Source: Marmoricola sp. OAE513 (GTDB lineage: Bacteria > Actinomycetota > Actinomycetes > Propionibacteriales > Nocardioidaceae). From it: a stretch of 64,000 nucleotides of DNA. Below are positions 34,050 to 58,066 of this stretch, piece by piece. The position numbers and the translations under genes are program-made. The stretch covers positions 1 to 64,000 of the forward strand of contig NZ_JBEPOC010000001.1 in the NCBI RefSeq assembly GCF_040546585.1, read 5' to 3'. The notes under the pieces were generated by a model. It made no database searches and was not told the DNA's origin. It worked only from the letters and a program-made list of their open reading frames with translations. The number at the start of each line of letters is the position of its first letter. Positions within the stretch are counted from its first letter, which is position 1.

Positions 34050-34832
34050 ATGACGGACTGCCTCGTAGACCAAGACGGCCACAAGCTCATCGTGACGATG
34101 AACCGCCCCGAGCGGCGCAACGCGCTGTCCTCGGAGATGCTGCGGATCATGGAGGACGCCTGGGACCGGGTGAACTCCGACCCGGAGATCCGGGTCTGCA
34201 TCCTCACCGGCGCGGGCGGCTACTTCTGCGCGGGCATGGACCTGTCCACCGCGAACGAGAAGCCGCCGGGCGACTCCTTCGAGTCCGGCGAGTTCGACCC
34301 GACCATCCTCAAGGGTCTGCTCAAGGGTTTCCGCCTGACCAAGCCGCTCATCGCCGCTGTCGAGGGCCCGGCCATCGCCGGTGGCACCGAGATCCTGCAG
34401 GGCACCGACATCCGGATCGCCGGCGAGTCCGCCAAGTTCGGCGTCGCCGAGGCGCGCTGGTCGCTCTACCCCCTCGGCGGTTCGGCCGTCCGGCTCCCCC
34501 GCCAGATCCCGTACACGGTCGCCGCGGAGCTGCTCCTCACCGGACGCCCGATCCTGGCTCCCGAGGCCAAGGAGCTCGGTCTGATCGGCCACGTCGTCCC
34601 GGACGGCACCGCGTTGGAGAAGGCGCACGAGATCGCCGACATGATCGCGGCCAACGGCCCGCTCGCCGTGCAGGCGATCCTCAAGACGATGCGCGACTCC
34701 GAGGGCAAGCACGAGGACGACTGCTGGGCCGACGACGCCAAGGTCGGTGCCGAGGTCTTCAAGTCCGAGGACGCCAAGGAAGGCCCGCGGGCGTTCCTGG
34801 AGAAGCGCCCCGCGCAGTTCAAGGGAGCCTGA
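34050..34832 (+). CDS. echA19: Steroid enoyl-CoA hydratase EchA19
   Basis: Crotonase-fold enzyme that hydrates the side-chain enoyl-CoA. The 260-residue protein resembles M. tuberculosis EchA19 (Rv3516) along its length: [69 protein letters not shown] and [13 protein letters not shown]. The ATG at 34050 matches the family N-terminus; a GTG at 34032 is nearer the operator. There is no clear Shine-Dalgarno, so the transcript may be leaderless. It is divergent from fadD19, as in mycobacteria. Confidence 0.93.
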
Positions 34833-34942
34833 CCGGGCTGGGATGTCCCGCGCCGCGACGCCGAGCGGGCTGGGATGTCCCGCGCGCTCGGACATCTGCG
34901 CCCGGTCGGCGCTCGCAAGTGAGACATCTGTGCCCTCTCGGC
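34831..34942. repeat. 32-bp-period inverted repeat cluster, copy 1
   Basis: Two plus-sense units with core GGGCTGGGATGTCCCGCG (34834, 34866) are exactly 32 bases apart. They are followed by two opposite-sense units with core GACATCTG...GCCC (34890, 34922), again 32 apart. The two halves pair as an imperfect inverted repeat. It is the same family as 52539-52786. It starts at the echA19 stop and ends before the next gene, so it may work as a terminator. Confidence 0.7.
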
Positions 34943-47959: not shown

Positions 47960-49009
47960 TCAGGCATCGAAGTGCTGCGGGTCGGAGCCGGGCCACGACC
48001 AGCGAAAGCCGCTGGAGCGCATGATCTTCACGACCCGGTGCTTCCCCGAGCGCCAGGCGTAGCGCGGGTTGCTGTGCCCGATCCACCAGCGGTTCGGTTT
48101 CCACCCCTTGGCCGAGCGGAACGGGTTCTCCCACGGATTCAGGTCCAGCGAGCGGCCGTAGGAGTGCGGGGAGCGGACACGCGGCCTGCCGGTGACCCAG
48201 CGGCAGTTGAACGCCGAGGTGTTGTCGTGCGCCATCGACCGGTAGTCGTCGGCTCCCCCGGACCGCGCCGTGTAGCCGAAGCGGTCGGGCAGGTACATCG
48301 AGCGGATCGGGACGCGTGCGGCGTACAGGCGCTTCAGCGCGCGGGTGAAGTCGCCGACGGCGCTCGCGCGGACGACGAGCTCGCCGCGGCGGCGGTAGCC
48401 GTCGAAGGCCCAGTAGTTCACCCGGATCAGCCGGAGGTTCGACCTGCCGACGGGACAGCCCGGCCGCCAGCTGCGGCCGACCATCGAGGACCACACGTCG
48501 CGCGGGATCCTGGTGACCACGACCGCGGCGCCAGCACCCACCGCGCGGGGCTGCGCGGGCAGCTTCTTGGGACGAGGCGCCTTCGGTGGCAGGACGACGC
48601 GCCGGGCGGGCGGCTTGTTGTCGACGTACCGGACCGCGGAACGCGCCGCAGGCCAGCTCGGGGCCCCCGTCTCGTCGACCGGCCCGGCTTCGCCCCGCAC
48701 CTGGTACCAGGTGTCCACGCGCGGCCGGATCGGCAACGCCTTGCGCCCGGAGGCGTCCAGGTGCACCAGCGTCCCGGGAGCCCACGGCCGACCGCGGCCG
48801 TGCGACCAGATTCGGACGGTGCCCGGCACCGCCGCACCGTCCGCGTCCGTCCAGTGCACGGTGAGCGTGCCGGAGGTCTCGTCGACGAGCGCGGACGGCA
48901 CGCTCAGGGCGAGGCCCGGAGGCGTTTCCGCCGCACGCGAGGAAGCCACGGGGACGACCGTGAGGACGAGTGCGAGCAGGACGGCACCGGGGAACCGAGA
49001 TGGGAACAT
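47960..49009 (-). CDS. Secreted M15-type peptidase (D-Ala-D-Ala carboxypeptidase-like)
   Basis: A 349-residue exported protein. A signal peptide (about 1-26, ending SSRA) is followed by a Pro/Arg-rich middle and a C-terminal peptidase M15 domain. Zinc-ligand motifs are SPHSYGRSLDLNPWENP (SxHxxGxxxD) and the closing WSWPGSDPQHFD. It probably trims peptidoglycan peptides in the envelope. ATG 49009 is chosen to place the signal peptide; the frame is open upstream to 49102. Nothing ties it to the steroid genes. Confidence 0.85.
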   Translation of the reverse strand: MFPSRFPGAVLLALVLTVVPVASSRAAETPPGLALSVPSALVDETSGTLTVHWTDADGAAVPGTVRIWSHGRGRPWAPGTLVHLDASGRKALPIRPRVDTWYQVRGEAGPVDETGAPSWPAARSAVRYVDNKPPARRVVLPPKAPRPKKLPAQPRAVGAGAAVVVTRIPRDVWSSMVGRSWRPGCPVGRSNLRLIRVNYWAFDGYRRRGELVVRASAVGDFTRALKRLYAARVPIRSMYLPDRFGYTARSGGADDYRSMAHDNTSAFNCRWVTGRPRVRSPHSYGRSLDLNPWENPFRSAKGWKPNRWWIGHSNPRYAWRSGKHRVVKIMRSSGFRWSWPGSDPQHFDA

Positions 49010-49103
49010 GAGGGCGACCCTAGGAGGACGAGGGAATGGGGGTGCAAGGGTGGATTCCCCGGCTGTGGACAGCCCTTGCCCAGAACGCCCTGTGGAATGC
49101 ACC

Positions 49104-49137
49104 GAGCCGCTGCGGCCCCGTGAGGTCGCAGCGGCTC
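49104..49137. terminator. Hairpin after cyp125
   Basis: An 11-bp stem (GAGCCGCTGCG and complement) with a 12-nt loop lies 16 nt beyond the cyp125 stop, in the leftward direction. No T-tract. It is probably the cyp125 terminator. Confidence 0.65.
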
Positions 49138-49152
49138 AGGTACGAACGCGTC

Positions 49153-50388
49153 CTAGACGTAGGTGACAGGCAGTTCCTTGATGCCGTTGATCCAGGCGTG
49201 CCGCAGTCGACGGCCCTCACCCGCCTGCTTGATGTCCGGGGCCTTGTCGGCGAGCACGTTGAAGATCACGTCGACCTCGACGCGGGCCAGGTTCGCGCCG
49301 ATGCAGTAGTGCGCGCCGTGGCCGCCGAAGGCCAGCTGCGGGTTGTGCTCCCGCTTGATGTCGAACTGACGCGGGTTGTCGAAGACGTCCTCGTCGTTGT
49401 TGCCGCTGGCGTAGTAGAGCGCGACCCGGTCGCCCTTCTTGACCAGCTGACCGCCGATCTCGATGTCCTCCAGCGCGGTGCGCTGGAACACGGTGACCGG
49501 GGTGGCCCAACGGATGACCTCGTCGACCATGGTGGTCGGACGCTCGGCCTTCCAGATCTCCCACTGCTCGGGGTTCTCGAAGAACGCCATCATGCCGTGG
49601 GTGATCGCGTTGCGGGTCGTCTCGTTGCCGGCCACGGCGAGCAGGATCACGAAGAACCCGAACTCGTCGTCGGTGAGCGCGCCCTCGCCGTCGTCACCGA
49701 CGGTGACGAGCTTGGTGATGATGTCGTCCTTCGGGTTCGCCCGACGGTCGTCGGCGAGCATCATCGAGTAACCCAGGATCTCGGCCGCCGCGACCGCCGG
49801 GTCGCCCTCGATCTCCGGGTCGTCGTACGACAGCATCTGGTTGGACCACTCGAAGAGCTTCTTGCGGTCCTCCTGCGGCACGCCGAGCAGCTCGGCGATC
49901 GCCTGCAGCGGAAGCTCGGCGGCGAGCTCCTCGACGAAGTCGCCCGAGCCCTTCGCGACGGCGGCGTCGACGATGTCGTTGGCTCGCTCGACCAGCACCT
50001 CCTTGAGCGCGTTCACGGCTCGCGGCGTGAACCCGCGGCTGATGATCTGGCGCAGCCGGGTGTGGTGCGGCGGGTCGTGGTGGATCAGCATCGCGCGCTG
50101 CAGCTCGACCTGGTCACGGGTCATGTCTGCAGCGAACCGGATGATCACGCCGTTCTCGGCAGTCGAGAAGACCTTGCTGTTCTTGGAGATCGCGAGGATG
50201 TCCTCGTGCTTGCTGATCGCCCAGAAGCCGGTGTCCAGGAAGCCGGCGCGGGCCTCTGGAGCCTGCTCGACCCAGTGCACCGGGGCGGTCTTGCGCAGCT
50301 CGGCGAACTCTGCGAGCGGGACCGCGATCTCGTTCAGACCGGGATCGGTCGGATCGAAAGCGGCGGGCAGTTCAGGGGCAATGGTCAC
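49153..50388 (-). CDS. cyp125: Cytochrome P450 CYP125, sterol C26/C27 oxidase
   Basis: Oxidises the terminal methyl of the cholesterol or cholestenone side chain to the acid, the first side-chain step. The 411-residue protein has the I-helix AVAGNETTRNAITHGMM, the EVIRWATPV ExxR helix and the haem loop FGGHGAHYCIGANLA with Cys362. Segments such as HHTRLRQIISRGFTPRAV match CYP125 (Rv3545c) rather than CYP142. GTG 50388 is chosen; GTG 50418 lies inside the operator and would translate the Shine-Dalgarno. It is divergent from fadA5, as in mycobacteria. Confidence 0.93.
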   Translation of the reverse strand: MTIAPELPAAFDPTDPGLNEIAVPLAEFAELRKTAPVHWVEQAPEARAGFLDTGFWAISKHEDILAISKNSKVFSTAENGVIIRFAADMTRDQVELQRAMLIHHDPPHHTRLRQIISRGFTPRAVNALKEVLVERANDIVDAAVAKGSGDFVEELAAELPLQAIAELLGVPQEDRKKLFEWSNQMLSYDDPEIEGDPAVAAAEILGYSMMLADDRRANPKDDIITKLVTVGDDGEGALTDDEFGFFVILLAVAGNETTRNAITHGMMAFFENPEQWEIWKAERPTTMVDEVIRWATPVTVFQRTALEDIEIGGQLVKKGDRVALYYASGNNDEDVFDNPRQFDIKREHNPQLAFGGHGAHYCIGANLARVEVDVIFNVLADKAPDIKQAGEGRRLRHAWINGIKELPVTYV

Positions 50389-50410
50389 GAGTTCTCTTCC
50401 TCCACGGTTC

Positions 50411-50424
50411 TGAAACACGTTCTA
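50411..50424. promoter_or_regulatory. KstR-like operator of cyp125
   Basis: TGAAACACGTTCTA fits TNNAACNNGTTNNA. It ends 23 nt upstream of the cyp125 GTG. Confidence 0.82.
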
Positions 50425-50491
50425 GTGGCGATGATTACACAATTTGTGCACGTGATCAAAGGTCTCCGCAGAGTTTTTCGGGCTAGGTTGA

Positions 50492-51721
<1,230 letters not shown>

Positions 51722-51781
51722 GCGTCCTCGCCCTGTGCGTCCGAGGTGACTCCGGCCCGGACGGGCCGCTAGGCTCGCGCG

Positions 51782-52525
51782 ATGTCTTCTTCGCGCGTTG
51801 TGTCCCGTCCGGTCCTGCTCACCGCTGCTCTCGCTCTCGCGCTGCCCCTGGCGGCCTGCGGCGGCGACAAGTCCTCTGACTCCACCGACGAGCCGAAGGC
51901 TGACGCCGCCTCGGCAGCGTTCGCGAAGAAGTCGGGTCCGGACATCGTCGAGGCCGCAGCGGCCGCGATGAAGAAGACGGGCGCCGTGCACCTGAGCGGC
52001 AACATGATCCAGGACGGCGAGCGTCTCGACATCGACCTGAAGGCGGACGGCGACGGTCTGTGCGAGGGCGAGCTCAGCACGAAGGACGGGGGCACCGCCA
52101 CCTTCGTCTCCGCCAAGGACGCCTCGTACCTCAAGGCCGACGACAAGTTCTGGGAGAAGAACGCCGGAGCCAACGCCGAGCAGACGCAGAAGTTCCTCGA
52201 CGGCAAGTGGGCCAAGCTGCCCGCCTCGGAGCAGTTCAGCACGCTGTGCGGACTCGGCTCGAACCTGTTCGCCTCCGAGGAGGACCTCGACGACGAGAAC
52301 TTCGAGGTCGGCAAGCTGACCGAGCTCGACGGTCACCCCGTGGTCGAGCTGATCTCGGCGGACGGCAAGGAGAAGTACCGCATGTTCGTCCGCGCCGACG
52401 AGCCGCACCAGATCCTGAAGTTCGTCAGCGAGACGCCCGGCGACCCCGGCGAGATCGCCTTCGACTTCGAGGAGAAGATCGCGATCGAGGTCCCCGGCGC
52501 CGACGAGTCCGTCAGCCTGCGCTGA
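51782..52525 (+). CDS. Exported lipoprotein, LppX/LprAFG-like
   Basis: A 247-residue protein with a lipoprotein signal peptide ending in the lipobox LAAC (Cys26). The mature part is acidic and beta-rich and resembles LppX/LprAFG carriers of lipids (for example KSGPDIVEAAAAAMKKTGAVHLSG). Two later cysteines (in DGLCEGE and TLCGLG) might form a disulfide. It is 60 nt after fadA5, so a link to lipid or sterol transport is possible but not shown. Confidence 0.75.
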   Translation: MSSSRVVSRPVLLTAALALALPLAACGGDKSSDSTDEPKADAASAAFAKKSGPDIVEAAAAAMKKTGAVHLSGNMIQDGERLDIDLKADGDGLCEGELSTKDGGTATFVSAKDASYLKADDKFWEKNAGANAEQTQKFLDGKWAKLPASEQFSTLCGLGSNLFASEEDLDDENFEVGKLTELDGHPVVELISADGKEKYRMFVRADEPHQILKFVSETPGDPGEIAFDFEEKIAIEVPGADESVSLR

Positions 52526-52538
52526 CCCGCCCCGCCCC

Positions 52539-52786
52539 AGGTGCGCCGAGCGGGCTCAGATGTCCCGTCCAGGTGGGCCGAGCGGGCTCAGATGTCCCGC
52601 CCAGGTGGGCCGAGCGGGCTCAGGTGTCCCGCGCAGGTGCGCCGAGCGGGCTCAGATGATCCGCCGAATGTGCATCCGAGCCCTCTCGGCATGCCCAGCT
52701 GGGACATCTGGGCCCTCTCGGCATGGCCAGCTGGGACATCTGGGCCCTCTCGGCATGCCCGGGTGGGACATCTGGGCCCTCTCGGC
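52539..52786. repeat. Inverted arrays of a 32-bp repeat between convergent genes
   Basis: Four head-to-tail units of exactly 32 bases start at 52539, 52571, 52603 and 52635 (core CCGAGCGGGCTCAGATGTCC). After a short centre come one partial unit and three full opposite-sense units at 52691, 52723 and 52755 (core GGGACATCTGGGCCCTCTCG). Opposed arms pair with about two mismatches per 22 bases. It fills the gap between a lipoprotein gene and an SDR and stops 2 bases before the SDR stop codon. No spacers, so not a CRISPR. Confidence 0.9.
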
Positions 52787-52788
52787 GT

Positions 52789-53670
52789 TCAGCTGGCGCC
52801 GTACACCGGCTCCGGCTTCACGCCCTCGGCGATGAGCTCGTCGACCACGGAGCCGAGCTCGGTGGCCTCCCAGCGGGCGCCCTTGTCGCGCGAGGCGCCG
52901 TGGTTCCAGCCCTCCTCGAGGGTGAGCAGGCCGCCGTCGCTCTCGAAGACGCGACCGGTCACGTGGCCGGACTCCTCGGAGGCCAGCCACGCCACGATCG
53001 GCGAGTTGTCCTCGGGAAGGGCCATCTCGGAGGTGTCGAACGCACCTTCGGTCATCCGGGTCTTGGCGACCGGCGCGAGTGCGTTGACGGTCACGCCGAC
53101 CCGCCCGAGCTCGGCGGCTGCGACCAGGGTCATCGTGGCGATGCCGCCCTTGGCCGCCGAGTACACGACCTGGCCGATCGAGCCCTGCAGCCCGGCGCCC
53201 GAGGTGGTGTTGATGACGCGCGCGACGCGCTGACGCCCCTCCTTCGACTCCGCCCGCCAGTACGCCGCCGCGTGCCGCAGGGTCGCGAAGTGGCCCTTGA
53301 GGTGCACCCGGACGACGGCGTCGAACTCGTCCTCGGTGGCGTTGACGAGCATCCGGTCGCGCACGAACCCGGCATTGTTCACCAGGATGTCGAGGCCGCC
53401 GAAGGTGTCGATCGCCTGCTGCACCATCGCGGCCGCCTGCTCGAAGTCGGCCACGTCGGCACCGTTGACGACGGCCTCGCCGCCCATCGCCTCGATCTCC
53501 GCGACGACCTCGTGCGCCGGCGAGTCGGTCTTGTCGCCGTTGTTCGAGACGCCGAAGTCGTTGACGACGACCTTGGCACCGTGTCGGGCGAGCTCGAGCG
53601 CGTGCGCCCGACCGATGCCGCGACCGGCTCCGGTGACGATGGCGATGCGGCCTTCAAGAAGACGGGACAA
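52789..53670 (-). CDS. Steroid-cluster short-chain dehydrogenase (Rv3548c-like)
   Basis: A 293-residue SDR of the larger hydroxyacyl-CoA dehydrogenase type: TGAGRGIGRAHALELA, VVVNDFG, ILVNNAGFVRDRM, HLKGHFATLRHAAAYWR, a Ser in NTTSGAGLQG, and YSAAK. The layout resembles M. tuberculosis Rv3548c and the 17-beta/3-hydroxyacyl Hsd4A group; which one it is cannot be settled by eye. The start is TTG at 53670, supported by AGGAG 6 nt upstream. It lies in the KstR2 block, leftward after the SDR at 53720, with a 49-nt gap. Confidence 0.85.
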   Translation of the reverse strand: MSRLLEGRIAIVTGAGRGIGRAHALELARHGAKVVVNDFGVSNNGDKTDSPAHEVVAEIEAMGGEAVVNGADVADFEQAAAMVQQAIDTFGGLDILVNNAGFVRDRMLVNATEDEFDAVVRVHLKGHFATLRHAAAYWRAESKEGRQRVARVINTTSGAGLQGSIGQVVYSAAKGGIATMTLVAAAELGRVGVTVNALAPVAKTRMTEGAFDTSEMALPEDNSPIVAWLASEESGHVTGRVFESDGGLLTLEEGWNHGASRDKGARWEATELGSVVDELIAEGVKPEPVYGAS

Positions 53671-53691
53671 CTTCTACTCCTAGGTTCTGGC

Positions 53692-53713
53692 GTCTCGCCA
53701 AGCTCGACGACCG
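53692..53713. repeat. Short dispersed repeat, copy 2
   Basis: GTCTCGCCAAGCTCGACGAC and two further bases differ at one position from the first arm of the palindrome at 46346. It lies between two SDR genes. Confidence 0.55.
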
Positions 53714-53719
53714 AGTGGG

Positions 53720-54469
53720 TCAGCTGATGTGCAGGAAAACAGGGGGTTCGCCACCGCCGTGGCAGCCGACGCTGGCACCGCTGACGTAGGACGCCAGATC
53801 GCTGGCGAGGAAGGCGGCGACGTTACCGACCTCGTCGGGGCGGGCCATCCGACCGAGCGGGATGGTCTCCTCGATGCGGGCGACCTTGTCGTCACCGCCG
53901 TAGTGGTCGTCGGTCTGCTCGGTCCGGCACAGCCCGACCTCGATGGCGTTGACGCGCACCTTCGGGCCCCACTCCATCGCCAGGCTCTTGGTCAGCGACT
54001 CCAAGCCGGCCTTCGCTGCGGCGTACGCCGCGATCGTGGGGGCCGGACGGTGAGCGCTGATCGAGCTGATGTTGACGATCGAGCCGCCGCTCCCCTGGGT
54101 CTGCATCACCGCGTTCGCGACCTGGGCGACGAGCAGCGGCGAGCTCAGGTTGAGGCCGATGATCTTGTCGTGGAACCGGGGCGAGGCCGTCGCCGCGTCC
54201 GCGGCCGGCGCTCCCCCGGCGTTGTTGACCAGCACGTCGAGGCGGCCGTGCTCGGCCACGATGCCGTCGACCATCGCCTGGACCGACTCGGGGTCGCGCA
54301 CGTCGCAGACGACGTGGGTGCTGCCCGGGAACGGCTCGGCCTCCGAGCGCGCGCAGGTCACGACGGTGGCACCGGCGAAGACGAACGCCTCGGTGATCCC
54401 GCGGCCGATGCCGCGGGAGCCGCCGGTCACCAGAACCACCCGTCCGGTCAGGTCGATCGAGAGAGCCAT
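53720..54469 (-). CDS. Short-chain dehydrogenase divergent from echA20 (Rv3549c-like)
   Basis: A 249-residue SDR: TGGSRGIGRGI, LVNNAGG, a Ser in NISSISAH, and YAAAK, with the C-terminal GGGEPP end. It stands where M. tuberculosis has Rv3549c, head to head with echA20 and under the KstR2-like site, so it should act on ring C/D intermediates, perhaps as a hydroxyacyl-CoA or ketone dehydrogenase. No Shine-Dalgarno is seen ahead of the ATG, and the operator begins 12 nt away, which suggests a leaderless message. Confidence 0.87.
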   Translation of the reverse strand: MALSIDLTGRVVLVTGGSRGIGRGITEAFVFAGATVVTCARSEAEPFPGSTHVVCDVRDPESVQAMVDGIVAEHGRLDVLVNNAGGAPAADAATASPRFHDKIIGLNLSSPLLVAQVANAVMQTQGSGGSIVNISSISAHRPAPTIAAYAAAKAGLESLTKSLAMEWGPKVRVNAIEVGLCRTEQTDDHYGGDDKVARIEETIPLGRMARPDEVGNVAAFLASDLASYVSGASVGCHGGGEPPVFLHIS

Positions 54470-54480
54470 GCTGGTAGAGT

Positions 54481-54498
54481 ACCAAGCAAGTGCTTGGT
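54481..54498. promoter_or_regulatory. KstR2-like operator
   Basis: The 18-base palindrome ACCAAGCA-AG-TGCTTGGT contains the KstR2 motif AnCAAGnnCTTGnT (54485-54498). It lies in the divergent promoter of the SDR and echA20, as expected for the HIP regulon. The cognate regulator gene is at 62730-63359. Confidence 0.88.
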
Positions 54499-54544
54499 TG
54501 TGTGTCGGCCGGGCTCGACAACCCGGCCACAGGGAGAGGTCCCC

Positions 54545-55303
54545 ATGTCTGCAGTCACCACCGACGTCCGTGACGACGGCATCGCCGTCATCACGATGTC
54601 CCACCCGCCGGTGAACGCGCTCACCGTCCAGGGCTGGTTCGACGTCGCGAGCGCGCTCGACGCCGCAGGCGCGGACCCGGCCGTCAAGGTCGTGGTCCTG
54701 CGCGCCGAGGGCAAGGGCTACAACGCCGGTGTGGACATCAAGGAGATGCAGAACACGACCGGGTTCGACGCTCTGATCGGTGCGAACAAAGGGTGCTACG
54801 CGGCCTTCAAGGCCGTCTACGAGTGCCCGGTGCCCGTCATCGCGGCCGTCAACGGCTTCTGCGTGGGGGGTGGGGTCGGACTGGTCGGCAACGCCGACAT
54901 CGTGGTCGCCGCCGAGAACGCGTACTTCGGCGTCCCGGAGGTCAAGCAGGGGGCACTGGGCGCAGCGACGCACATGGCCCGTCTGGTCCCCCAGCAGATG
55001 ATGCGCGCCCTCTACTTCACCGCCGCCACCATCCCGGCGACCGAGCTGCACCGGTTCGGGTCGGTCTACCGCCTCGCTCCCCCGGAGCAGTTGCTCGAGG
55101 TGGCGCTCGAGGTCGCGGCGAGCATCGCCGAGAAGGACGGGCGGGTCATCAGGGCCGCCAAGGAAGCGCTGAACGGCATCGAGCCGGTCGACGTGAACAA
55201 GAGCTACCGGTTCGAGCAGGGGTTCACCTTCGAGCTCAACCTCGCCGGTGTCAGTGATGAGCTTCGCGATGACTTCGCGGGAACGGACAAGGCAAAGAAG
55301 TGA
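54545..55303 (+). CDS. echA20: Ring-cleaving crotonase EchA20
   Basis: Crotonase-family hydrolase that opens the last steroid ring (ring D) in HIP catabolism. The 252 residues show GKGYNAGVDIKEMQ, AAVNGFCVGGGVGLVGNADI and FGVPEVKQGALGAATH, typical of this lineage. The ATG at 54545 has GGGAGAGG about 5 nt ahead. It leads the operon echA20-ipdA-ipdB-ipdC, with four-base overlaps at each junction. Confidence 0.92.
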   Translation: MSAVTTDVRDDGIAVITMSHPPVNALTVQGWFDVASALDAAGADPAVKVVVLRAEGKGYNAGVDIKEMQNTTGFDALIGANKGCYAAFKAVYECPVPVIAAVNGFCVGGGVGLVGNADIVVAAENAYFGVPEVKQGALGAATHMARLVPQQMMRALYFTAATIPATELHRFGSVYRLAPPEQLLEVALEVAASIAEKDGRVIRAAKEALNGIEPVDVNKSYRFEQGFTFELNLAGVSDELRDDFAGTDKAKK

Positions 55304-56202
55304 GCAAGCCCCGCGACAAGCAGATGACGATCGACGAGGTCGTCGCCCAGCTCTCCGACGGCATGACCATCGGCATCGGCGGGTGGGGCCCGCGGCGCAA
55401 GCCGATGGCCCTGGTCCGCGCCATCCTCCGGTCCGACCTGAAGGACCTCACCATCGTCTCCTGGGGCGGCGCCGACGTCGGTCTTCTCGCCCGGGCCGGC
55501 AAGATCCGCAAGCTGGTCTACGCCTTCGTCTCGCTGGACTCGATCCCTCTGGAGCCGAACTTCCAGCGCGCCCGCCAGAACGGCACCATCCCCGAGATCG
55601 TCGAGCTCGACGAGGGCATGTTCCAGACCGGCCTGTACGCCGCGGCGCAGCGCCTGCCCTTCCTGCCGATGCGGGCCGGGCTCGGTTCCGACGTGCTGGT
55701 CAACAACGCCTGGATCAAGACCGTCGCGTCGCCGTACGCCGACGAGAACGGCGACTTCGAGGAGCTGACGGCGGTGCCGGCGCTCAAGCTCGACGTCGCG
55801 CTGGTGCACATGAACCGCGCCGACGCGCACGGCAACGCGACCTACCTGGGTCCGGACCCGTACTTCGACGACCTGTTCGTCCAGGCCGCAGACCAGGCCT
55901 TCGTGAGCGTCGAGCAGATCGTCGACACCGCAGGCCTGACCATCGACACCCCGGTCCAGCGGCTGCTGATCAGCCGGATGATGGTCGACGGCGTCGTCGA
56001 GACGCCGAACGGTGCGCACTTCACCGTGTGCACGCCGGACTACGAGCGCGACGAGAAGTTCCAGAAGGCGTACGCCGCCGCGGCCGGCGGGTCCGACGAG
56101 GACTGGGCCGCGTTCGAGGAGCGGTTCCTGTCCGGCGACGAAGACGCGTACCAGGCCGCAGTTGCCGCATTCCGTGCCGAGCTCGAGGGAGCGACCAAGT
56201 GA
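55300..56202 (+). CDS. ipdA: COCHEA-CoA hydrolase, alpha subunit
   Basis: The IpdAB complex has a class I CoA-transferase fold but hydrolyses the ring C carbon-carbon bond of COCHEA-CoA. The 300-residue alpha subunit has GGWGPRRKPMALVRA and WGGADVGLLARAGKI; Glu105 (VELDEGM) is at the position of the catalytic glutamate known for IpdA. GTG overlaps the echA20 stop (GTGA). Confidence 0.93.
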   Translation: MSKPRDKQMTIDEVVAQLSDGMTIGIGGWGPRRKPMALVRAILRSDLKDLTIVSWGGADVGLLARAGKIRKLVYAFVSLDSIPLEPNFQRARQNGTIPEIVELDEGMFQTGLYAAAQRLPFLPMRAGLGSDVLVNNAWIKTVASPYADENGDFEELTAVPALKLDVALVHMNRADAHGNATYLGPDPYFDDLFVQAADQAFVSVEQIVDTAGLTIDTPVQRLLISRMMVDGVVETPNGAHFTVCTPDYERDEKFQKAYAAAAGGSDEDWAAFEERFLSGDEDAYQAAVAAFRAELEGATK

Positions 56203-57002
56203 ACGACGTCTCGACAGGCTCGACGAACGGCGCCTCCCGCGCAGAGGTCTGCGCAGCAGCGGTGGCCGACGCGTTCAAGGACGACGGCGAGATCTTCGCC
56301 AGCCCGATGGGCACGATGCCGATGATCGGTGTCCGGCTCGCCAAGCTGACCTCGAACCCCGACCTGGTGATCTCGGACGGCGAGTCGCTCTTCCTGGGCG
56401 GCACTCCCCCGATCTTCGCGAAGGCCGACGTGGTCGAGGGCTGGATCCCGTTCCGGCGCGTCTTCGACGTCGTGGCGTACGGCAAGCGGCACGTCATGAT
56501 GGGAGCGACCCAGGTCGACAAACACGGCAACCAGAACATCTCCGCCATCGGTGATTTCGCGCAGCCGAAGCGCCAGCTGCTCGGGTCGCGCGGCGCCCCC
56601 GGCAACACGGTGAACAACCGGACGTCGTACTGGGTGCCGAAGCACAGCACCCGCGTGTTCGTGGAGAACGTCGACATCGTCTCCGGCGTCGGGCCCGCGC
56701 GCGCCAAGGCGGCCGGGCCGGGGGCGTCGAAGTACAACGACATCCACCGGATCGTCTCGAACCTCGGCGTCTTCGACGTGAAGGGCGCCGAGGACACCGT
56801 GCGGCTGATCAGCCTGCACCCGGGCGTCACGGTCGAGGAGGTCGTGGAGAACACGGGCTTCGAGCTCGAGGTTCCCGCGGAAATCCCCGTCACCCGCGAG
56901 CCCACCGAGACCGAGCTGATGATCATCCGCAACGTGCTCGACCCGAAGAACTTCCGGGACCGCGAAGTCCCGCCGGTGGTGGCCCAGAAGGACGAGTCAT
57001 GA
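56199..57002 (+). CDS. ipdB: COCHEA-CoA hydrolase, beta subunit
   Basis: A 267-residue partner of IpdA: RAEVCAAAVADAF, SPMGTMPMIG, RVFDVVAYGKRHVMMGATQV, VSNLGVFD and LHPGVTVEEV match IpdB. The first ~13 residues (VNDVSTGSTNGA) go beyond the mycobacterial N-terminus, which begins near STRAEVC. They are encoded by a short dispersed repeat (56208-56230). The GTG overlaps the ipdA stop. The core protein looks intact. Confidence 0.92.
   Translation: MNDVSTGSTNGASRAEVCAAAVADAFKDDGEIFASPMGTMPMIGVRLAKLTSNPDLVISDGESLFLGGTPPIFAKADVVEGWIPFRRVFDVVAYGKRHVMMGATQVDKHGNQNISAIGDFAQPKRQLLGSRGAPGNTVNNRTSYWVPKHSTRVFVENVDIVSGVGPARAKAAGPGASKYNDIHRIVSNLGVFDVKGAEDTVRLISLHPGVTVEEVVENTGFELEVPAEIPVTREPTETELMIIRNVLDPKNFRDREVPPVVAQKDES
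56208..56230. repeat. Short dispersed repeat inside the ipdB start, copy 3
   Basis: GTCTCGACAGGCTCGACGAA and three more bases share the frame of the repeats at 46346 and 53692 with a few changes. Here it is translated as VSTGSTNG, residues 4-11 of IpdB. Confidence 0.6.
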
Positions 57003-58066
57003 CCGACCAGCTTCTCCGCACCCCGCTGACCGAGCTCGCGGGCATCAAGCACCCGGTCGTGCAGACCGGCATGGGCTGGGTCGCCGGCCCGCGCCTGGTC
57101 TCCGGCACCGCGAACGCCGGCGGCCTCGGCATCCTCGCCTCGGCCACGATGACGCACGAGGAGCTCGAGAAGGCGATCGTCGAGGTGAAGGGTCGGACCG
57201 ACAAGCCGTTCGGCGTGAACCTGCGTGCCGACGCCGCCGACGCCCCGGCCCGCTGCGACCTGCTCATCGAGTACGGCGTGAAGGTCGCCTCGTTCGCGCT
57301 GGCCCCCAAGCCTGAGCTGATCGCCAAGCTCAAGGAGCACGACATCGTCGTGATCCCGAGCATCGGCGCGCCCAAGCACGCCAAGAAGGTCGCTTCCTGG
57401 GGCGCCGACGCCGTGATGATCCAGGGCGGCGAGGGTGGTGGCCACACCGGCAGCGTCCCGACCACCCTGCTGCTCCCCACCGTGCTCGACGCCGTCGACA
57501 TCCCGGTGATCGCCGCGGGCGGCTTCTTCGACGGTCGTGGTCTCGCCGCAGCACTCTCCTACGGCGCCGCCGGAATCGGCATGGGCACCCGCTTCCTGCT
57601 GACCAAGGACTCGACCGTCCCGGACGCCGTCAAGCAGCGGTACCTGGATGCGGACCTCAACGGCACCGTGGTGACCGCGAAGGTCGACGGCATGCCGCAC
57701 CGGATGCTGCGGACCGACCTGGTCGACTCCGTCGAGGAGTCCAGCGCCCTGAAGCGACTCGGTCCGACGGCCCGGCGCACCCTGGCGTTCAAGAGGATGA
57801 GCGGCATGTCCTGGGTCGGCTTGATCAAGGACGGCCAGGCCATGAAGCACGGTTCCGACCGGTCCTGGGCGCAGATGGTGCTGGCGGCGAACACCCCGAT
57901 GATGCTCAAGGCAGGCCTGGTCGAGGGCGACCCGGACGCCGGCATCCTCGCCTCGGGTCAGGTCGTCGGCGTGATCGAGGACCTGCCGACCTGCGCGGAG
58001 CTCATCGAGCGGGTCGTCACGCAGGCGGCCGCTGAGCTGAAGCGCACCCAGGGATATTTCGCCTGA
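56999..58066 (+). CDS. ipdC: FMN-dependent HIP-CoA pathway oxidoreductase IpdC
   Basis: A 355-residue nitronate monooxygenase-fold enzyme of the IpdC (Rv3553) type, acting on ring-C/D CoA esters of HIP. TELAGIKHPVVQTGMGWVAG opens the barrel; GGEGGGHTGS holds the catalytic His, and AAGGFFDGRG and GIGMGTRF bind FMN phosphate. ATG overlaps the ipdB stop. The order echA20-ipdA-ipdB-ipdC is that of M. tuberculosis Rv3550-Rv3553. Confidence 0.93.
   Translation: MTDQLLRTPLTELAGIKHPVVQTGMGWVAGPRLVSGTANAGGLGILASATMTHEELEKAIVEVKGRTDKPFGVNLRADAADAPARCDLLIEYGVKVASFALAPKPELIAKLKEHDIVVIPSIGAPKHAKKVASWGADAVMIQGGEGGGHTGSVPTTLLLPTVLDAVDIPVIAAGGFFDGRGLAAALSYGAAGIGMGTRFLLTKDSTVPDAVKQRYLDADLNGTVVTAKVDGMPHRMLRTDLVDSVEESSALKRLGPTARRTLAFKRMSGMSWVGLIKDGQAMKHGSDRSWAQMVLAANTPMMLKAGLVEGDPDAGILASGQVVGVIEDLPTCAELIERVVTQAAAELKRTQGYFA

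Follow-up and report, generated by a model that had tools for sequence, protein, structure and literature searches.

Opposed 32-bp repeat arrays at gene ends in Nocardioidaceae: a gene-boundary palindromic family and candidate two-way terminators without a U tract

Four described systems come closest to the array reported here. REP sequences and BIMEs are species-specific extragenic repeats, and BIMEs alternate in orientation and often lie between convergent genes, according to the available portions of two sources (PMC1525189, PMC2817692). The arrays analysed here are many-copy and lie in gene gaps, but they are direct-repeat runs at a 32-bp pitch with one fixed polarity, one run being followed by its reverse run rather than by alternating units, and the head of the repeat recurs across a bacterial family. 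REPINs, as far as the available text of their description goes (PMC3116915), are inverted pairs in which two copies of a conserved short sequence flank a short loop, and tandem clusters of them are known. The present elements likewise combine a short conserved sequence with its inverted copy in a way that allows a hairpin (both arms are present in 46 of 52 elements, six elements having been folded), whereas direct repeats are added on either side of one centre instead of the whole hairpin being repeated. A RAYT-driven REPIN was considered and rejected, since the Y1 transposase domain (PF01797) was found in 0 of 16 genomes, the two array-bearing species studied in detail included, in a search whose own controls rang in 5 of 14. 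U-less ("I-shaped") terminators are GC-rich hairpins that follow a stop codon and have no U tract; of the 535 highly structured 3′ ends in Streptomyces clavuligerus, 353 are devoid of a U-rich tract, according to the available part of that report (PMC8269248). The present elements likewise have a GC-rich hairpin a short way past the stop codon and no U tract, but they use one genome-specific core at many gene ends, while the available part of that report does not describe its terminators as one repeated sequence. Finally, the DUS dialects of Neisseriaceae combine a common core with species-specific letters and form inverted pairs linked to terminators (PMC3630211, in the portion available); the arrays here, in contrast, are far fewer in copies and phased, with no known uptake role. 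No description of such arrays was found in the open-licence papers searched, among the matches listed, and within that literature the statement of a first-pass annotation that the repeat belongs to no named family held.

The window is a 64,000-nt stretch of Marmoricola sp. OAE513 (contig NZ_JBEPOC010000001.1, positions 1 to 64,000), and the array occupies 52545-52786 within it. Its left arm (52545-52662, minus strand) contains four 22-nt cores, at 52545-52566, 52577-52598, 52609-52630 and 52641-52662, separated by 10-nt spacers and thus set at a 32-bp pitch, with the head GCCGAGCGGGC pointing outward and the tail inward. After a 6-nt centre (52663-52668), the right arm (52669-52786, plus strand) repeats the arrangement in mirror image with cores at 52669-52690, 52701-52722, 52733-52754 and 52765-52786, and in both arms the core starts are spaced by 32. 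The innermost right core, at 52669, is decayed and carries 4 mismatches; it is the unit that the first-pass annotation counted as a half when it described opposed 32-bp arrays between convergent genes, a description borne out by the four left and four right cores. Tandem Repeats Finder (TRF) reports 4.2 copies for the left arm (52531-52665, score 212) and 3.6 for the right (52673-52786, score 193), the top two scores among its 18 rows for the window. Core matches in the window number 11; 100 dinucleotide shuffles gave 0.57 on average and never as many as 11.

The upstream convergent gene (51782-52525, plus strand) is lipoprotein-like by its N-terminus as read by eye and has no Pfam match, and the downstream one (52789-53670, minus strand) encodes a short-chain dehydrogenase (SDR; PF00106). 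The array had been said to fill the whole gap between them, which is nearly right: it ends 2 nt short of the SDR gene end, but it starts 19 nt past the upstream stop codon (52525), after a short GC-rich stretch (52526-52544) inside which the left array as called by TRF begins, at 52531. A second element in the window, with two left and two right cores, lies at 34828-34942 between two plus-strand genes, and the stop codon of the gene at 34050-34832 falls inside its first unit; the core that the first-pass annotation saw shared with 34831-34942 is indeed common to both places.

The two arms form an inverted repeat of 115 nt, 73% complementary, with 14 nt between, and the predicted RNA fold of the array reaches −199.8 kcal/mol against −136.5 for shuffled sequence (z −11.6), in agreement with the earlier remark that the arms pair with each other. 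Five other elements fold with z between −10 and −17. No Rfam match reached the gathering score in the window or in seven array loci, and a scan of 48000-58000 for U-tract terminators (a GC-rich hairpin followed by a T run) found none at 52526-52788. Two other identities were discarded. Open reading frames cross the array mechanically, yet in 1.2 Mb of a congener none of the 13 multi-core clusters lies outside the gaps between called genes; a CRISPR-like array was ruled out by reasoning, because within an arm the 10-nt spacers closely resemble one another and because the arms are opposed.

The core GGGACATCTGNGCCCTCTCGGC recurs, at up to 3 mismatches, 157 times (76 plus, 81 minus) in the 3.89-Mb genome of the window (G000), against 1 match for the reversed control, and it is present in relatives; this is the search for the repeat elsewhere in this and related genomes that the first-pass annotation had proposed. 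About 100 of the 157 places were listed, and they form 25 clusters, two in the window and 23 fetched. Other searches added two elements (2672999 and 1661360) and one with another tail (276539), so that the genome holds about 28, on a list that may be incomplete (at least 25 clusters plus these). At L243:5040-5155, the same head and pitch are combined with another tail, AGCAATGTGCA, so that two dialects occur in one genome. A congener with the same tail (G012) provided a further 27 fetched clusters, and at least 3 more exist there.

These 25 and 27 elements make up the 52 whose anatomy was compared, after lone matches with 5 mismatches and no partner at 32 (e.g., L071:5148) had been dropped. 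In all 46 two-arm elements, every minus unit lies to the left of every plus unit; the remaining six show one arm only at up to 5 mismatches. Where adjacent cores on one strand are less than 60 apart, their pitch is exactly 32 in 129 of 130 cases in G000 and 51 of 51 in G012 (180 of 181 together), and the central gap is 7 or 8 nt in 23 of the 46. Arms have 3-5 units in most G000 elements (left 17/25, right 20/25) and 2 units in most G012 elements (18/27 on either side). The 10-nt spacers are near random between sites (identity 0.31-0.47, random 0.30) and alike within an arm (0.45-0.67), as would be expected from tandem duplication of 32-bp units. Both species have an element whose two arms enclose an AbiEi_4/REase-like gene (L053:5236-6180 and L090:5152-6096, proteins 63% identical). 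The idea that a gene between the arms is the element's own cargo was rejected, as such genes occur in 3 of 52 elements and are of two kinds (AbiEi_4-type in L053 and L090, YqeY-like in L057).

The gene context was read from an ORF caller of our own trained on the two genomes, so that gene starts are approximate. In 26 G000 sequences chosen around arrays, the 29 array gaps comprise 15 convergent, 11 tandem and 3 divergent ones, and convergent gaps make up 15/29 against 9/133 of the other gaps in the same sequences (p = 8e-8). In 1.2 Mb of G012, namely two nearly whole contigs picked as large and known to bear arrays, the 13 array gaps comprise 7 convergent, 3 tandem and 3 divergent ones, with 7/13 convergent against 52/542 among other gaps of 30-500 bp (p = 1e-4). 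Single-core clusters were excluded from these counts (20 lone matches with 3-4 mismatches on the G012 contigs), and no lone core with up to 2 mismatches was present in the 1.2 Mb. The array edge lies within 10 nt of the stop codon at 34 of 41 flanking gene ends in G000 and within 7 nt at 15 of 17 in G012, where one of the two exceptions (L078) adjoins a tRNA-Arg gene, invisible to the ORF caller, whose 3′ end is 5 nt away. The array lies at most 6 nt from the upstream gene's stop codon in all 11 tandem gaps of G000, and the downstream start is at least 21 nt away in 10 of these 11. A gene-end bias, for which the first-pass annotation had suggested looking, is strong, and the possibility it had allowed for, a few chance copies without such a bias, does not describe these many copies. 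Divergent gaps amount to 6 of 42 in both species; at least one of them is firm, namely L071, which is flanked by a GXWXG/DUF4334 gene on one side and a divergently oriented Mur-ligase-type gene on the other, and the same place bears an array in G000 (L063). Palindromes of the GAACnnGTTC type stand beside arrays at L071:4950-4972 and also at L063, L069 and L087; they resemble KstR-type operators.

Judged from sequence, the window array belongs to a family of palindromic arrays at gene boundaries in Nocardioidaceae, and we give an about even chance to the reading that such an element acts as a two-way U-less terminator or 3′-end block whose arms have grown by unit duplication. A run of 22-nt cores at a 32-bp pitch, followed by the same run in reverse complement and set against the flanking stop codon or codons, would give, when transcribed from either side, a single long GC-rich hairpin lacking a U tract. 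Such a hairpin would work as a two-way transcription terminator, as protection of RNA 3′ ends, or both, in the U-less ("I-shaped") manner of GC-rich genomes. The arms would lengthen through tandem duplication of whole 32-bp units, and the homogenisation of one tail through the genome might come from copying of the short core or from selection by a factor that reads the tail. The stop-codon abutment, the convergent bias and the tandem gaps that all hug the upstream stop favour termination, as does one site (L052) at which the corresponding convergent pair in G012 is separated by a plain 16-bp GC hairpin. Further points in its favour are the folds of six elements, the placement of every multi-core cluster on the 1.2 Mb of G012 in a gene gap, the co-variation of the innermost cores in G012, the excess of two-sided changes in the inner hairpins, and the U-less 3′ ends of S. 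clavuligerus. Speaking against it are the lack of a U tract, the 6 of 42 divergent gaps, the six one-armed elements, and the absence, in tests of co-variation, of a signal beyond the innermost cores of G012.

In these tests, the innermost cores of the two arms co-vary in G012 (20.09 of 22 positions paired against 19.50 when shuffled, p 0.002, 22 loci), whereas second-to-second cores there pair no better than shuffled ones (p 0.89, 18 loci), and the G000 arms show no co-variation in any register tried (inner p 0.22, second 0.96, outermost 0.90). Thus, there is no clear sign of selection on pairing between the long arms, which pair mainly because the core is conserved. Two-sided changes in 26 inner hairpins of both species number 34 against 16.6 when shuffled (0 of 500 shuffles reached this), with the two species pooled and relatedness left out of account. 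The hairpin at the centre may be maintained as such; alternatively, the inner palindrome could be a trace of the element's origin.

The core with its G000 tail, at up to 2 mismatches, gave 87 matches in G012 and 0 in the other 22 of 23 further genomes of the genus, and a looser core pattern gave one match each in G004, G014 and G021. A covariance model built from the inner hairpin, with matches leaning towards pairing and at most 20 candidates scored per genome, so that its counts are lower bounds, matched in at least 33 of 294 family genomes (G000 and G012 included), many with other tails. Pitch played no part in picking these loci, and 26 of the 32 head-to-head distances under 40 found there equal 32. 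A tail-free pattern of two GCCGAnnSGGC heads exactly 32 apart without mismatch occurs in 119 of 341 Nocardioidaceae genomes, G000 included, many of them with a single match that is possibly due to chance. Its maximum is 289 (G336) against a control of at most 1 per strand; since a head such as GCCGACTCGGC reads as a match on either strand, some of these counts are doubled. Five or more matches were counted by hand in about 80 genomes, which belong to four genera. Outside the family, in a class sample counted by hand, 20 of 227 genomes have one match and none has more, and the control pattern gives one or two matches in 22 of 227.

Compared across six genomes of the genus, tails from different sites within a genome share 65-88% identity, against 15-55% from genome to genome (random 26%), with the exception of G000 and G012 at 81%; the loci of G003, G009 and G020 in this comparison of tails and heads were chosen by the 32-bp pattern. 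Heads are 74-95% identical between genomes, a figure partly built in by the picking of units with the head pattern. A different tail checked directly gave 40 matches in G006 (control 1) and 0 in both G000 and G012. The 11-nt head recurs across the family, while the 11-nt tail is genome-specific.

The sites themselves turn over between congeners. By reciprocal best proteins, 3 of 25 G000 sites have a partner among the 27 fetched G012 clusters, namely the window array (L083), L053 (L090) and L063 (L071). At the site orthologous to the window array, where a gene like 51782-52525 is absent between a thiolase gene and the array, G012 has 2+2 units against 4+4 here; the copy-number-variable element suggested by the first-pass annotation thus finds partial backing, and its other two options, a bidirectional terminator and a nucleoid-protein site, were reasonable as well. 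For nine G000 sites, a flanking gene was present in the third of G012 that had been fetched, and an array stands there at two of them (the window array and L063); at the other seven (34828, L047, L051, L052, L057, L064 and L065), the G012 stretches contain nothing closer than 6 mismatches to the core. The L064 array lies against a stop codon where G012 has a short gap, and the counterpart of L047 consists of opposed arrays of a different, 22-bp repeat.

Such turnover is what a selfish non-autonomous palindrome would produce, that is, a REPIN- or MITE-like element copied by a putative enzyme and surviving at the least harmful gene ends, above all convergent ones. The 3 of 25 matched sites, the 7 of 9 comparable sites lacking the core in G012, the L064 array, the single main tail per genome and the inverted doublet resembling a REPIN all fit this explanation, which we regard as somewhat unlikely. 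However, the Y1/RAYT class, the only transposase class searched, is missing from all 16 genomes; in many convergent gaps the array reaches almost to the stop codon on either side, which is not expected from random insertion; and the spacers vary between sites, so that whole 32-bp units are not what the sites share.

The 22-bp arrays bear on this explanation as well. Upstream of lysS, surveyed by eye in 23 genomes of the genus including G000 (with a partial match in G005 and coaX adjacent in only some of the genomes), an AbiEi_4-type gene separates two 32-bp arms in G000 and G012, arrays of 22 bp occur in G016 and G004, and the other genomes have nothing or a plain hairpin. The 22-bp array of G004 lies at the coaX stop codon, which is contained in its first unit, and is absent from the closest relative of G004, G017 (L276 vs. 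L274; lysS 96.3% identical). The lysS tree, built on this one gene, gives weak support, 0.36, for the place of G000. The difference between G004 and G017, which fits a selfish element, would be either a gain or a loss. A genome-wide invasion of G004 by this repeat found no support, with 9 matches there against 4 for the control, and this low abundance counts against a selfish element.

TRF on the 1.2 Mb of G012 lists five period-22 rows in gene gaps and three period-32 rows, one of them an unrelated repeat. Arrays of 22-bp pitch with heads like GTTGAnnnGGGC stand at gene ends at L193:15190-15296, L198:212-333 and L206:15396-15949 in this genome, the opposed arms at L206 flanking about 400 bp. 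Intergenic tandem arrays of the GGTTGAGGTGCGAGCG type, with periods of 30 and 32 bp and an unrelated core, occur at L183:12986-13164 and L213:14833-14977. The 22-bp arrays are possibly the same family with two helical turns instead of three.

A pitch of about three turns (32 bp) or two (22 bp) brings in a DNA-level explanation, in which each core would be the site of a putative protein (nucleoid, topoisomerase or insulator-like) marking gene boundaries, with the cores stacked on one face of the helix and the tail serving as the species-specific recognition part. It would account for the nearly invariant pitch in both species, for 32 being the main pitch at loci found by the hairpin model in other genomes despite unrelated tails and near-random spacers, for a second gene-end class at 22 bp in the genus, and for elements between divergent genes, and it does not need the arms to pair, as they need not in G000. 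On the other side, tandem duplication alone keeps the pitch within an arm, there is no protein candidate, and the fixed polarity and near-palindromic centre are unneeded for simple binding; we consider this explanation unlikely.

An equally unlikely, wider proposal is that of a family-wide boundary mark, in which head and helical pitch (32 bp, or 22 bp in the sister class) would form a scaffold and a co-evolving trans-acting factor would read the fast-changing tail, each species' dialect spreading to new gene ends and replacing older terminators. A DNA-uptake-type recognition sequence with species dialects and inverted pairs at terminators, as in Neisseriaceae, is very improbable: the common short part, the per-genome variable part and the inverted pairs at gene ends are DUS-like, but 157 loose matches here compare with 1543-3770 copies of DUS dialects (in the available portion of PMC3630211), and the 1.2 Mb of G012 lack lone cores with up to 2 mismatches. 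We know of no competence link in Nocardioidaceae, which also counts against it.

Under the two-way U-less terminator reading, the arrays are candidate two-way terminators for GC-rich actinobacteria, in which many mapped 3′ ends lack a U tract. An architecture seen again and again in one bacterial family, with part of the sequence changing from genome to genome, offers a natural experiment on the homogenisation of short non-coding repeats. A factor that reads the tail, if there is one, would represent a novel type of sequence-specific component at the ends of genes.
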